This document shows, one piece after another, positions 20,364 to 25,734 of a DNA stretch of 36,838 nucleotides; within the stretch, counting starts at the first letter, position 1, and each line of letters opens with the position of its first letter. This stretch comes from an uncultured Chromatiales bacterium (GTDB taxonomy: Bacteria; Pseudomonadota; Gammaproteobacteria; Steroidobacterales; BM003). The notes under the pieces are model-generated. The model worked only from the letters and a program-made list of their open reading frames with translations, searched no databases and was not told the origin of the DNA. The translations under genes were made by a program, and so were the position numbers. The stretch is from the NCBI GenBank assembly GCA_937128475.1, contig CAKZML010000207.1, forward strand, positions 1 through 36,838, given 5' to 3'.

Positions 20364-20708
20364 ATGAGCAACATAATCGAGCAACTTGAAAAAGAACAGA
20401 TGGATCGTGAGATCCCTGAATTTGGACCCGGCGACACCGTCGTGGTGCAGGTTAAAGTGGTAGAAGGTACCCGTGAACGTCTGCAGGCTTACGAAGGCGT
20501 AGTTATCGCCAAGCGTAACCGCGGTCTGAATAGCGCCTTCACAGTGCGAAAGATGTCCCATGGCGAGGGTGTGGAGCGTGTGTTCCAGACCTACAGCAAG
20601 GTCATCGAGTCGATCACCGTGAAGCGTCGTGGTGACGTCCGTCGTGCCAAGCTTTACTACCTGCGCGAGCGCACTGGTAAGGCAGCCAGGATCAAAGAGA
20701 AAATCTAA
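20364..20708 (+). CDS. rplS: 50S ribosomal protein L19
   Basis: Sits at the 30S-50S interface. ATG 20364 gives 114 residues (E. coli 115) starting [13 protein letters not shown]; the frame extends upstream to 20331, but those residues are not part of L19. Signature segments are [32 protein letters not shown] and [29 protein letters not shown] before the start is a plausible ribosome-binding site. Last gene of the rpsP operon, closed by the terminator at 20738-20776. Confidence 0.97.
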
Positions 20709-20710
20709 CA

Positions 20711-20776
20711 CGGGTGCAAACCCGGGTTACTGGAAACGGCAAGTGCGGGTGTTAACCCATGCGCACTTGCCTTTTT
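20711..20776 (+). terminator. Tandem hairpins ending the rpsP-rplS operon, second a strong intrinsic terminator
   Basis: A first small hairpin CGGGT-GCAA-ACCCG (20711-20724) starts two bases after the rplS stop. The second is a ten-base-pair perfect stem, GGCAAGTGCG (20738-20747) / CGCACTTGCC (20762-20771), with a nested GGGT / ACCC pairing option in its loop, followed directly by TTTTT (20772-20776). The second element is a textbook rho-independent terminator on the plus strand. Confidence 0.9.
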
Positions 20777-20878
20777 CGTTTGTGCGCTTCGCTTTTTTCC
20801 TGAATCGAGTGAACCTTCTACTGCGAATGCACTCAAAACATTGCACCTACCTGGTTGCGTGATTCAGAGTAAAATCGA

Positions 20879-21751
20879 ATGCACATGAAAAGAATCAAAT
20901 CCATATTCCCTATGCCAGCTCTTTTGGCATTGCTGGCCCTGCAATCAGGCTGTGCAATCGTGATGGACAGGGTGACCGGAAAAATCGCCGGTAATCTTTC
21001 CAGTGCGATCCTGAACCAGGAAGACCCCGAAACGGTGCGCGATGGCGCGCCAGCCTATCTGCTGTTGATGGATAGCATGATCGAGGGCAATCCTGAAAGC
21101 GCGTCTGCGCTAAGTTCCGCCGCGAATCTCTATGCCGCCTATGGCGCTGTTTTTGTCGAAGACCCGGAGCGTGCCAAGCGACTAACCCGCCGTGCCCATG
21201 AGTACGGCCTCAGGGCGATGTGCGTGGTGCATGAGCCCGCTTGTGGTTGGTCTGAAATGGACTTCGCCAGTTTTGATGCGGACCTGGAGACTCTTACCTC
21301 TGACGAGTTGCCGGAGTTGTATAGTTTCACGGTCAGCAGCCTGGCCTACACCCGGGCCAACAGCGATGACTGGGGTGTACTGGCAGAGCTTCCCAAGGTG
21401 GAGTCGGCATTGAACCGTCTGTACCAGTTGGACTCCGATTATCAAAGCGGTGCTATCCACTTGTACATGGGAATTCTCAACACCATCCGTCCGCCCTCAC
21501 TGGGTGGCAAACCGGAAGTGGGTAGAGAGCACTTTGAGAAGGCCATAGAGTTATCCGCTGGCAAGGACCTGTCGGTGAAAGTGGAATTCGCCCGAAGTTA
21601 TGCCCGCCTGGTATACGATCGAGAACTCCATGACAGCTTGCTGAAAGACGTGATCGAGTCAGACCCTGTCCAGCCGGGACTAACCTTGTTTAATACCCTT
21701 GCCCAGAGGCAGGCCGAGAGATTACTGGAGACTGCCGATGATTATTTCTAG
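20879..21751 (+). CDS. TRAP-associated TPR lipoprotein, TatT (TPAT) family
   Basis: A 290-residue lipoprotein. A basic start and hydrophobic stretch end in lipobox LQSGC, with lipidated Cys at residue 25, so the mature protein is periplasmic and membrane-anchored. The body is alpha-helical with TPR-like repeats and matches my knowledge of TatT (Treponema pallidum Tp0956), which pairs with the TRAP binding protein TatP in TPR-protein-associated TRAP transporters; here too the binding protein follows immediately. Characteristic features seen: ETVRDGAPAYLLLMDSMIEG, AAYGAVFVEDPERAKRLT and MGILNTIRPPSLGG. TatT is not the twin-arginine system. It overlaps the next gene by 14 bases. ATG 20879 or ATG 20885 could be the start; neither has a strong ribosome-binding site. 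Confidence 0.87.
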   Translation: MHMKRIKSIFPMPALLALLALQSGCAIVMDRVTGKIAGNLSSAILNQEDPETVRDGAPAYLLLMDSMIEGNPESASALSSAANLYAAYGAVFVEDPERAKRLTRRAHEYGLRAMCVVHEPACGWSEMDFASFDADLETLTSDELPELYSFTVSSLAYTRANSDDWGVLAELPKVESALNRLYQLDSDYQSGAIHLYMGILNTIRPPSLGGKPEVGREHFEKAIELSAGKDLSVKVEFARSYARLVYDRELHDSLLKDVIESDPVQPGLTLFNTLAQRQAERLLETADDYF

Positions 21752-22769
21752 AACCCGAAGTGGACTGTTGTCGATGGTGTCCGCCATCGTGCTTGGCCTG
21801 CTGTTAGCACCTTCTGCCCAGGCTCTGGATCTCAAGATTGCCACCATCGCTCCCGAAGGCACCGTCTGGATGAAGCAGATGCGTGATGGCAGTAAAGAGA
21901 TCAAGGAAAGAACCGATGGCCGCGTGAACTTCAAGTTCTTCGGCGGCGGCGTCATGGGCAACGACAAAAAGGTGATGCGCAAGATTCGTATTGGCCAGTT
22001 GCATGGTGGCATGTTTACCCCCAGTTCAGTCGCTGACATTTATCCAAGCATGCAGCTTTACGGGATGCCCCTGGTGTTCAGTTCCGTGGGCGAAGTGGAG
22101 TACGTCAGGGAACGGATGGACAGCATCCTGATGGCAGGTCTTGAAGAGGCCGGACTGGTGAGCTTTGGCTTTTCGGACGGTGGATTCGCACGGGTGCTTT
22201 CTAACACGCCGATCACCTCAGTCGACTCTCTTAAGGGCCGCAAGGTATGGGTTCCCGAGGGTGACTTGATTACCTACAACACCATGTCGGCGCTGGGTTT
22301 GTCGCCGGTAACCCTTGCGGTAACCGATGTGATGACCGGCCTGCAGACCGGGCTGGTAGATATCGTGGGGTCCTCGCCTGTGGGGGCAGTGGTGATGCAG
22401 TGGCACACCAAGGTCAAGTACATGACTGATTTTCCGCTAGGCTACCTGATGGGTTACATGGTGGTGGACAAGAAGTACTTCGATAAAATTTCCGATGCAG
22501 ATCAGCAGATTGTGCGTGAGGTATTCGGCAAGGTTTACGCTGAATTTGATCGTCAGAACAAGTTGGATGACAGCGCGGCCTTCCAGGCCCTGGTGGATTC
22601 GGGAATTGAGATTGTCCGTCCCAATGAGCAAGAAATTGAAAACTGGCGCACCCTGGTTTACGCCAGCAATTTTGAAATGGCCGATCGCGGTGTGATCTCC
22701 AGGGAACTGCTGGACAAGATGCTGGGCTACATAGACGAATATCGTCAGAGCCAGAAAGAGGCAAACTAA
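21738..22769 (+). CDS. TRAP transporter substrate-binding protein, DctP/TatP type
   Basis: A periplasmic solute-binding protein of the DctP superfamily, 343 residues. A signal peptide (about 1-29, ending APSAQA before LDLKIAT) is followed by the two-lobed binding fold with the conserved VWMKQMRDGSKEIKERT, VNFKFFGGGVMGND, LKGRKVWVPEGD and a long interlobe helix near the C-terminus. ATG 21738 has GGAG at 21727-21730; the frame opens earlier (21699), but only inside the tatT homologue. Next to the TatT-like lipoprotein, it most resembles TatP (Tp0957). The ligand is unknown; for TPAT systems a hydrophobic ligand has been proposed. Confidence 0.9.
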   Translation: MIISRTRSGLLSMVSAIVLGLLLAPSAQALDLKIATIAPEGTVWMKQMRDGSKEIKERTDGRVNFKFFGGGVMGNDKKVMRKIRIGQLHGGMFTPSSVADIYPSMQLYGMPLVFSSVGEVEYVRERMDSILMAGLEEAGLVSFGFSDGGFARVLSNTPITSVDSLKGRKVWVPEGDLITYNTMSALGLSPVTLAVTDVMTGLQTGLVDIVGSSPVGAVVMQWHTKVKYMTDFPLGYLMGYMVVDKKYFDKISDADQQIVREVFGKVYAEFDRQNKLDDSAAFQALVDSGIEIVRPNEQEIENWRTLVYASNFEMADRGVISRELLDKMLGYIDEYRQSQKEAN

Positions 22770-22772
22770 GCG

Positions 22773-23288
22773 GTGGTAGAGCAACAGGCAGGCATCATTG
22801 CCCGACTGGATCGCCTGGGGCGACTGGTCGAAAACAGTATGCTGGTGGTGTTGCTTACCAGCATGATTTTGCTGGCATCCTCGCAAATTATTCTGCGTAA
22901 TTTCTTTGATAGTGGCTTTGTCTGGGCCGACGAGTTGTTGCGTATTCTGTTGTTGTGGACGGCCATGTTTGGTGCTGTTGCTGCCAGCCGGGAAAATCGC
23001 CAGATAGCCATCGATGTCCTGTCGCGATTCCTTCCCGGTCGCTGGAAAAACCTGGCCATGACCCTGGTGCAGTTTTTTACCGCTGCCGTGTCCGGCTTGA
23101 TCGCCTGGCATTCTTATCGCTTCGTGAATGATTCACGCATGTTTGAAGACTTGTTGATGGGTGATTGGCCTGCCTGGGTATTCCAGTCGGTTATCCCCCT
23201 GGGCTTCGCAATGATCGCCTATCGCTACCTGGTTTTCGGTTTGGCCAGTGCGTGGAAGGTAATCCGCGGGAAAGGGGTGGCGGCATGA
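22773..23288 (+). CDS. TRAP transporter small permease subunit (DctQ family)
   Basis: A 171-residue inner-membrane protein with four predicted helices (about 23-45, 57-74, 90-112, 133-157). It contains the family features IILRNFF, a WADELLRILLLWTAMFGA segment and ENRQIAIDVL. It pairs with the large DctM subunit in a Na+-driven secondary transporter. The start is GTG 22773, with AGAGG at 22757-22761, three bases after the binding-protein gene; its stop overlaps the DctM start as ATGA. Confidence 0.93.
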   Translation: MVEQQAGIIARLDRLGRLVENSMLVVLLTSMILLASSQIILRNFFDSGFVWADELLRILLLWTAMFGAVAASRENRQIAIDVLSRFLPGRWKNLAMTLVQFFTAAVSGLIAWHSYRFVNDSRMFEDLLMGDWPAWVFQSVIPLGFAMIAYRYLVFGLASAWKVIRGKGVAA

Positions 23289-24544
23289 TTATCGTCAGCC
23301 TTTTACTGGTCTTGCTGGCGCTGCTGGGTGCGCCGTTGTTCGCCATCATTGCCGCCAGCGCCATGTGGGGCTTCGCCAATACCGATGTGGACCTGTCGGT
23401 GATGGGTATCGAGATCTTCGGTCTGGCTGAGGTCCCGATCCTGCTGGCTATACCGCTATTTACCTTTGCCGGTTACCTGATCAGTGAAAGCGGTGCTCCG
23501 CGACGCCTGGTACGAATTTCCAACGCACTGCTAGGCTGGCTGCCCGGCGGGCTTGCGATGATTTCCCTGGCGGCCTGTGCGTTGTTTACCGCGTTCACCG
23601 GCGCCTCGGGTGTCACCATCATCGCGCTGGGAGCGCTTCTCTATCCGGCCCTTAAAGAGGCGGGCTACAAAGAGTCATTTAACCTGGGACTGGTTACCTC
23701 TGCTGGCAGCCTGGGTTTGTTGTTCGCGCCTTCCTTGCCCTTGATTCTGTATGGCGTGGTGGCCGAAGTATCGATCGACAGCTTGTTCCTCGGGGGCATT
23801 CTGCCGGGTACCCTCATGGTGGTGATGTTGGCTGCCTACAGTTTCTGGGTGAACCGTCACAACCGGGCCGAGCCAGGCAAGTTTTCCTGGAAAGAAGTAC
23901 GCGACTCCTTGTGGGAAGCCAAGTGGGAAGTGCCGCTGCCGATTGTCGTACTGGGTGGCATCTACGGTGGTGTGTTCGCCGTTTCCGAAGCGGCTGCAGT
24001 CACCGCATTGTATGTGCTGATCATTGATGTATTGATCATGCGCGAGGTGTCCCTGAAGCAGTTACCCCGGATCATGCAGGAGTCCATGGTACTGGTAGGT
24101 GGCATCCTGATTATTCTTGCGGTCTCCCTGGCATCAACCAATTACATGATTGATTCAGGCGTGCCTGACAAGTTGTTCGCCATGGTGGAATCCATGGTCG
24201 ATACTCCTTTCGGATTCATGGTGGCGCTGCTGATTTTCCTGCTGGTGCTGGGTGCCATCCTGGATATTTTCTCAGCTATCGTGCTGGTAGTGCCGTTAAT
24301 TCTTCCGGTGGCCCAGGGCTTTGGTATCGACCCCGTTCACCTGGGCATTGTTTTCCTGGCTGCCATGCAGTTGGGGTACCTGACTCCACCCGTGGGTCTG
24401 AATCTGTTTATAGCGAGTTTCAGATTCGAGAAATCCATTACCAGTATTTACATGGCCACCTTGCCCTTCCTTCTGATCCTGGCGGTGGCCGTGGTTATTA
24501 TTGCGTTCTGGCCAGAGATGACGCTGTTTTTCTTGCAAGATTAG
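23285..24544 (+). CDS. TRAP transporter large permease subunit (DctM family)
   Basis: The 419-residue transport subunit with about eleven to twelve membrane segments. Family signatures: LLALLGAPLFAIIAASAMWGF at the N-terminus (shown from about residue 9), GWLPGGLAMISLAACALFTAF-type central region with GASGVTIIALGALLYPALKE, SAGSLGLLFAPSLPLILYG, and the C-terminal GYLTPPVGLNLFIASF. It couples substrate import to an ion gradient, probably Na+. ATG 23285 overlaps the DctQ stop by four bases; a longer frame back to 23165 lies wholly inside the DctQ gene and is rejected. The four-gene TRAP set ends here. Confidence 0.94.
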   Translation: MIIVSLLLVLLALLGAPLFAIIAASAMWGFANTDVDLSVMGIEIFGLAEVPILLAIPLFTFAGYLISESGAPRRLVRISNALLGWLPGGLAMISLAACALFTAFTGASGVTIIALGALLYPALKEAGYKESFNLGLVTSAGSLGLLFAPSLPLILYGVVAEVSIDSLFLGGILPGTLMVVMLAAYSFWVNRHNRAEPGKFSWKEVRDSLWEAKWEVPLPIVVLGGIYGGVFAVSEAAAVTALYVLIIDVLIMREVSLKQLPRIMQESMVLVGGILIILAVSLASTNYMIDSGVPDKLFAMVESMVDTPFGFMVALLIFLLVLGAILDIFSAIVLVVPLILPVAQGFGIDPVHLGIVFLAAMQLGYLTPPVGLNLFIASFRFEKSITSIYMATLPFLLILAVAVVIIAFWPEMTLFFLQD

Positions 24545-24589
24545 GGCAGAGTTTGAATTTGGGCTGATTAATCTGGGGATTGTAGATAG

Positions 24590-25687
24590 ATGAACCTTTC
24601 GGGAAAATTATTTGTTGTGGCCCTGGCCATGCTGCTTTTCAGTGGATGTGGGAATACAGCAGCTCGGGTTCCTGAACTGATTCTGCCCAAGGGGTTTTCC
24701 GCCGAGGTTTACGTGGAAAACATTCCCAACGCCCGCTCCATGGTGATGGGAGACAAGGGAACCCTGTTCGTTGCGAGCAAGGGTGAGGGTAAGGTCTACG
24801 CAGTCACGGGTGTGGGTAGCGACAGGCGAACGGTAGTGGTAGTTGCCCGGGGATTGAATATGCCCAATGGCGTGGCATTTCGTGACGGCAGTCTCTATGT
24901 TGCAGCGGTAAGCCAAATTACCCGCTATCCCGGTATTGAGGACTCCCTGGAGTCGCCTCCCGAGCCGGTGATGGTGGCGAATGATTTCCCCACTGATGGC
25001 CATCATGGCTGGCGATACATCGCCTTCGGTCCCGACGGCAAGCTGTATGTACCCATAGGCGCTCCCTGTAATGTCTGTGATGAACCAGGCTACGCGGTCA
25101 TTACACGTATGAATCCGGATGGCAGTGATCGGGAGGTTGTTGCCCGGGGTGTGCGCAATACCGTGGGCTTTACCTGGCACCCGGAAAGCGGGGACTTGTG
25201 GTTCACGGACAACGGTCGTGACTGGATGGGTGACGACATGCCGCCCTGTGAGCTCAACCATGTAACCGGCCCCGACATGCACTTTGGCTTCCCCTATTGT
25301 CACGGTAACGGGATCTCCGACCCGGACTTCGGACCGGGACATGATTGCACTGATTACACGCCCCCGGCCCAGGCCCTGGGTGCTCATGTTGCCCCACTGG
25401 GCGTGAAGTTTTATACCGGCAGTATGTTCCCCGAGGAATATCACATGCAGGCTTTTATCGCCGAGCACGGCTCGTGGAATCGCAGCGAGAAAAGCGGCTA
25501 CCGGGTGAGTATGGTGCGAATGGAAAACGGTAAGCCCGTGGCTTATCAGCCTTTCATCGAAGGTTGGCTAAAAGACGATGCAGTCGCTGGCAGGCCGGTG
25601 GATTTACTTGTGCTAAAGGATGGCTCCATGCTGGTCAGCGATGACCAGGCAGGTAGAATCTGGCGAATTAGTTACACAGCAGATTAG
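24590..25687 (+). CDS. PQQ-type sorbosone/glucose dehydrogenase-like lipoprotein
   Basis: A 365-residue secreted protein with a lipoprotein signal (lipobox LFSGC, Cys20) and a six-bladed beta-propeller of the soluble glucose/sorbosone dehydrogenase family. Visible signatures: LPKGFSAEVYVENIPNARSM, GLNMPNGVAFRDGSLYVA, the HHGWRYIAFGPDGKLYVPIG region whose histidine matches the family's catalytic/PQQ site, WFTDNGRD, EHGSWNRSEKSGYRV and SDDQAGRIWRI. Oxidation of a sugar or aldose-like substrate in the periplasm is expected from the family; the real substrate is unknown. It lies 45 bases after the TRAP permease and may be co-transcribed. Ribosome-binding site GGGGA before ATG 24590. Confidence 0.85.
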   Translation: MNLSGKLFVVALAMLLFSGCGNTAARVPELILPKGFSAEVYVENIPNARSMVMGDKGTLFVASKGEGKVYAVTGVGSDRRTVVVVARGLNMPNGVAFRDGSLYVAAVSQITRYPGIEDSLESPPEPVMVANDFPTDGHHGWRYIAFGPDGKLYVPIGAPCNVCDEPGYAVITRMNPDGSDREVVARGVRNTVGFTWHPESGDLWFTDNGRDWMGDDMPPCELNHVTGPDMHFGFPYCHGNGISDPDFGPGHDCTDYTPPAQALGAHVAPLGVKFYTGSMFPEEYHMQAFIAEHGSWNRSEKSGYRVSMVRMENGKPVAYQPFIEGWLKDDAVAGRPVDLLVLKDGSMLVSDDQAGRIWRISYTAD

Positions 25688-25734
25688 GTTGCAGATACGC
25701 GGGCCGGCAGATTTGGGCCTTGTAGACATTATGG

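Follow-up and report, generated by a model that had tools for sequence, protein, structure and literature searches.

A TPAT-type TRAP transporter operon whose binding protein carries tryptophan in place of the carboxylate-binding arginine in an uncultured gammaproteobacterium

Introduction

Does the four-gene cluster at positions 20879-24544 of a 36,838-nucleotide stretch of DNA from an uncultured Chromatiales bacterium (the window) encode a genuine TPAT-type TRAP transporter, and what kind of molecule would such a transporter carry? The TPAT family owes its definition to an organism that is difficult to culture and manipulate, and we found no measured ligand for any TPAT importer in the literature. 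An earlier note on this DNA, made from its sequence alone, read the cluster as a TPAT with a TPR lipoprotein and suggested that the adjacent propeller gene might act on the cargo or be co-regulated with it. In DctP-type solute-binding proteins (SBPs), a single arginine (Arg147 of SiaP) grips the ligand carboxylate, is conserved in about 97% of sequences, and restricts TRAP SBPs to carboxylates (PMC4646407). Here we examine the operon, its two periplasmic components, its chromosomal slot, and the likely nature of its cargo.

Results

The cluster is a TPAT operon

Open reading frame calls and Pfam assignments place four co-directional genes at 20879-24544 in the order tatT-tatP-tatQ-tatM (Table 1). 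The first 14 nt of tatP overlap the 3' end of tatT, as the earlier note had described, and its statement that the permease genes follow without gaps was nearly exact, with 3 nt between tatP and tatQ and an ATGA overlap at the tatQ/tatM junction. TatM additionally scored 341.7 bits against TIGR00786, which exceeds the cut-off of 268. On the 5' side of tatT lie trmD, rplS, and then a hairpin; tatM is followed by a GSDH-like propeller gene and then sppA. RNA folding of 20705-20790 gave -38.7 kcal/mol (z -4.9), and none of 200 shuffles was equally stable; the hairpin is absent from the list returned by a simple terminator scan. This strong terminator-like hairpin between rplS and tatT points to a separate transcript start for tatT, which thus probably opens its own transcript.

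Table 1. Features of the TPAT locus and its surroundings in the window.
Feature	Position	Strand	Evidence
Terminator-like hairpin with T-run, 3' of rplS	20738..20776	+	RNA fold and direct reading of sequence
tatT, TPR-fold lipoprotein, T-component, 290 aa	20879..21751	+	PF16811 TAtT, 244 bits, E 2.1e-72, full-length
tatP, DctP-type TRAP solute-binding protein, 343 aa	21738..22769	+	ATG start; PF03480 E 8.7e-37
TatP Trp171 codon TGG	22248..22250	+	Column of SiaP Arg147
tatQ, small permease subunit, DctQ family, 171 aa	22773..23288	+	GTG start; PF04290 E 1.6e-26
tatM, large permease subunit, DctM family, 419 aa	23285..24544	+	PF06808 E 4.4e-82
GSDH-like beta-propeller gene	24590..25687	+	PF07995 GSDH E 6e-12; 45 bp 3' of tatM

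The tatT-tatP-tatQ-tatM order was found again in most of 44 named loci. A chance match is ruled out because tatT occupies the same place in 39 genomes from this bacterial order and the gene order is recurrent. Given the TAtT, DctP, DctQ, and DctM families in one operon, together with the TatT fold and the arginine-less SBP described below, we conclude that 20879-24544 is a genuine TPAT operon and an unremarkable family member for its lineage, in agreement with the original assignment.

TatT is predicted to have the T-component fold

Structures of TatT and TatP were predicted with AlphaFold2 from alignments of 62 sequences, with pLDDT values of 91.6 and 93.0, respectively. The top Foldseek matches of the TatT model (8g52, 3u64, and 4di3) are all TPAT T-components. 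VIA-align superposed the model on Treponema pallidum TatT (4di3_A) with Z 28.0 and 2.2 Å over 254 residues, and on 8g52 with Z 26.3; more distant fold matches were the TPR domain of PTPIP51 (Z 19.1) and the sterol-binding protein BstC (Z 18.2). The predicted lipoprotein therefore has the TatT/TPR fold that the earlier note had made a condition of its reading.

The lipobox cysteine of TatT, Cys25 (codon 20951-20953), is invariant across the 62 aligned sequences. A strict lipobox pattern was matched by 86 of 94 TatT proteins, none of which has Asp at +2. By the E. coli sorting rule, this consistent lack of Asp suggests the outer membrane, where TatT, whose own lipobox (QSGC) is off-consensus with Gln at -3, is probably anchored, as judged from the +2 residue only.

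Two further cysteines, C115 and C122 (21221-21244), are conserved in almost all of 62 TatT sequences; they stand seven residues apart and are a candidate disulphide pair. TatT ends in Phe in 82 of 94 relatives, and a Phe also aligns here in two solved homologues, 3u64 and 8g52. A phage origin of TatT was rejected, since PHROG gave no match.

TatP lacks the carboxylate-binding arginine

The TatP model has the standard fold of TRAP SBPs, and its matches include Tp0957 (3u65). A type-I signal peptide is present here and in nearly all relatives, and TatP is probably soluble in the periplasm. Lipoprotein candidates picked out among TatPs by a loose pattern mostly have a Cys in the signal-peptide core with an AxA site after it; one protein (L105) is a possible exception.

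In a profile alignment, Trp171 of TatP (residue 170 of model m82872e7c3347, which is numbered without Met1) stands opposite the classical Arg of solved SBPs, and the arginine motif KIRV is replaced by KVWVPEGD. Among 100 TatT-linked SBPs that cover this column, 97 have Trp, two have Phe, and one has Arg. By contrast, the column is Arg in all 31 control DctPs (separate alignment), including the only other DctP of this genome; the controls were DctPs without a TatT neighbour within the fetched flanks and were the best-scoring family members rather than a random draw. The classical arginine that would have spoken against the earlier note is thus absent, and most TPAT SBPs bear KxWxPxGD where carboxylate transporters have the arginine motif. 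The single Arg occurs in a planctomycete TatT-linked SBP (L075, 7796-9430).

These results support the view that the TatP ligand would be held without a carboxylate-arginine salt bridge. They also bear on the possibility that the locus encodes a conventional carboxylate-importing TRAP system to which an accessory lipoprotein has been added, the role of Arg being taken by another residue. The DctP, DctQ, and DctM domains are typical, and in SiaP mutants water can partly take the place of the lost Arg (PMC4646407), both of which speak for such an importer; nevertheless, loss of SiaP Arg147 abolishes high-affinity uptake (PMC4646407), and Trp or Phe replaces Arg in 99 of the 100 TatT-linked SBPs, compared to none of the 31 controls. 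We therefore regard a carboxylate importer as decidedly improbable.

Several other residues are fixed in TatP and differ in the controls, namely the aromatics W44, F150, and W222, and the charged residues K82, R84, E119, and R124.

The propeller gene is a tenant of a variable chromosomal slot

Among 59 relatives, the interval between rplS and sppA (20709-25734 in the window) is variable: it may be empty, may hold GSDH or TPAT alone or the two together, or may contain about 2 kb of other DNA. In all 39 TPAT genomes, tatT lies on the same strand as rplS and 117-2439 bp downstream of it. In the 20 genomes without TPAT, rplS is followed directly by sppA in 12 (15-226 bp) and the order is rplS-GSDH-sppA in five; of the remaining three, two have about 2 kb of other DNA in the slot, and no rplS was detected in the third. 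When 89 concatenated TatT-TatP pairs were placed in a tree, members from the slot clustered with three label changes, one of which comes from the mislabelled row L075. This pattern fits a mainly vertical descent of TPAT in the order, in a heritable chromosomal slot.

A five-gene catabolic unit, in which the dehydrogenase-like propeller protein processes the cargo, is suggested by the position of its gene on the same strand just downstream of tatM and by a close homologue in 17 of the 39 TPAT genomes of the order. However, the other 22 TPAT genomes lack this homologue, five genomes have rplS-GSDH-sppA without TPAT, and GSDH and TPAT are independent in the 59 genomes (counts of 17, 22, 5, and 15; Fisher p 0.26, for genomes that are not independent of one another). 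Likewise, no GSDH match was found near TPAT loci outside the rplS slot. Because GSDH and TPAT are independent and each is found alone, we interpret the propeller gene as a tenant of the slot rather than a demonstrated partner of TPAT; the action on, or co-regulation with, the cargo proposed in the earlier note is unsupported, and we give the five-gene unit hardly any weight. The N-terminus of the propeller protein is lipobox-like (FSGC) in this genus, and most relatives have an ordinary signal peptide.

TPATs are common in gammaproteobacteria and lie mostly among housekeeping genes outside the slot

PF16811 scored above cut-off in 87 of 369 sampled gammaproteobacterial genomes. Outside the rplS slot, TPAT neighbours are mixed and mostly housekeeping genes, among which no sign of a catabolic operon was found. 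As clues to a ligand these neighbours were set aside; they offered only phosphopantetheinyl transferase, class I glutamyl/glutaminyl-tRNA synthetase, M48 peptidase, ExbD, and the like. In two loci labelled Desulfobacteraceae and Desulfuromonas (L048 and L052), a 4'-phosphopantetheinyl transferase gene directly precedes tatT. A distant second gammaproteobacterial TPAT subgroup (L077-L083, L086, L089, and L092) lies outside the rplS slot and has mostly IWxWQGDP instead of VWVPEGD, with Phe in L081 and L083.

The cargo is most likely hydrophobic

In T. pallidum, the TatT pore and the TatP cleft are hydrophobic (PMC5812351), and BstC, a member of the TatT family, binds sterols (PMC10942540). By homology to TatT, Tp0957, and BstC, and from the loss of Arg, a hydrophobic cargo is the most likely reading here. 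Loss of Arg alone does not imply a hydrophobic ligand, because Csal_0678, another arginine-less exception, binds ethanolamine (PMC4646407). This precedent raises the alternative of a small polar non-carboxylate (an amine, alcohol, or zwitterion), bound by W171 through cation-pi or stacking contacts, with TatT as a docking or scaffold protein instead of a lipid conduit. Such a cargo would be consistent with the fixed charges of TatP that are missing in controls and with protein-protein contact as a common role of TPR folds; in particular, Lys82, Arg84, and Arg124 could form a new charged anchor, which would count against a hydrophobic ligand. On the other hand, TatP has several fixed aromatics, and the nearest characterised relatives of TatT have a hydrophobic pore (PMC5812351) or bind lipid (PMC10942540). 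We consider a polar cargo unlikely.

In T. pallidum, FadL has been put forward as the outer-membrane donor (PMC8407342). Searches for FadL (PF03349) found none in this genome or in its two genus-mates, and FadL is unlinked to TPAT among the relatives (10 of 39 TPAT genomes compared to 7 of 20 without TPAT; p 0.55). A hand-off from FadL to TatT as in T. pallidum was rejected on both grounds. A self-made sterol or hopanoid cargo was likewise rejected, since this genome gave no SQHop_cyclase_C match to a squalene/hopene-type cyclase. The assembly is 96% complete, which makes these single-gene absences strong, if short of final. The lack of a detectable FadL and cyclase, together with the housekeeping neighbourhood, makes an inducible carbon source, or a sterol or hopanoid of the cell's own making, less likely as the ligand than a lipid-like molecule that is already in the envelope or arrives by another route.

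Discussion

Proposed mechanism and significance

We propose, with moderate confidence, that the operon encodes a TPAT-type TRAP importer that moves a hydrophobic or amphipathic cargo from outer-membrane TatT to soluble TatP and on to TatQM. TatT would take the molecule into its central pore and hand it directly to periplasmic TatP, whose cleft would hold it with W171 in place of the carboxylate-gripping Arg; TatP would then deliver it to TatQM for import driven by an ion gradient. The TatT-TatP complex, the hydrophobic ligand path, the direction of import, and the ion coupling are inferred from the T. pallidum relatives and from TRAP transporters generally. With TatT anchored in the outer membrane and TatP free to diffuse, the pair would be compatible with a shuttle across the periplasm. 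More speculatively, the importer may serve a housekeeping, ion-driven retrograde route, in which TatT would extract an endogenous outer-membrane lipid (e.g., a lysolipid, fatty acid, or isoprenoid) and TatP-TatQM would return it to the cytoplasm. We hold this extension to be doubtful; if true, it would constitute a TRAP-powered counterpart of ATP-driven lipid trafficking, present in roughly one in four of the gammaproteobacterial genomes sampled.

Independently of the cargo, the survey shows that TPATs are common among gammaproteobacteria, and it identifies free-living hosts as candidates for finding the TPAT ligand. Moreover, KxWxPxGD provides a simple sequence mark that sets TPAT SBPs apart from carboxylate transporters and allows their recognition by sequence.

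Comparison with known systems

The T. pallidum TPAT (TatT Tp0956, TatP_T Tp0957, and TatQM; PDB 3u64, 3u65, and 4di3) shares the TatT family and fold with the system described here, as well as an adjoining arginine-less DctP-type SBP and a DctQ/DctM permease. The two systems differ in several respects. Tp0957 has Ala at the arginine column (PMC4646407), where TatP has Trp; the T. pallidum TatP is a lipoprotein (PMC5812351), whereas ours has a type-I signal peptide; and Q and M are fused in one T. pallidum gene and encoded separately here. Given a probably soluble TatP, separate genes for Q and M, and the failure to detect FadL or a cyclase in this genome, the T. pallidum picture is not directly transferable.

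Structures 8g52 and 8g53, deposited as 'bacterial TPAT family transporter', are only 21-22% identical to this TatT; 8g52 is nevertheless its nearest solved relative by sequence (E 4.7e-14) and has the same fold. BstC of Methylococcus capsulatus (7t1s) has a TatT-like fold and is classed in the T-component superfamily, but it works with BstA and BstB beside sterol-synthesis genes and is not described with DctQM, in contrast to the operon reported here, whose genome has no detected sterol/hopanoid cyclase. Finally, SiaPQM and other classical DctP-TRAP systems share the SBP fold and the DctQ and DctM families with this transporter, which is set apart from them by Trp in place of the carboxylate-binding Arg and by the additional TatT lipoprotein.
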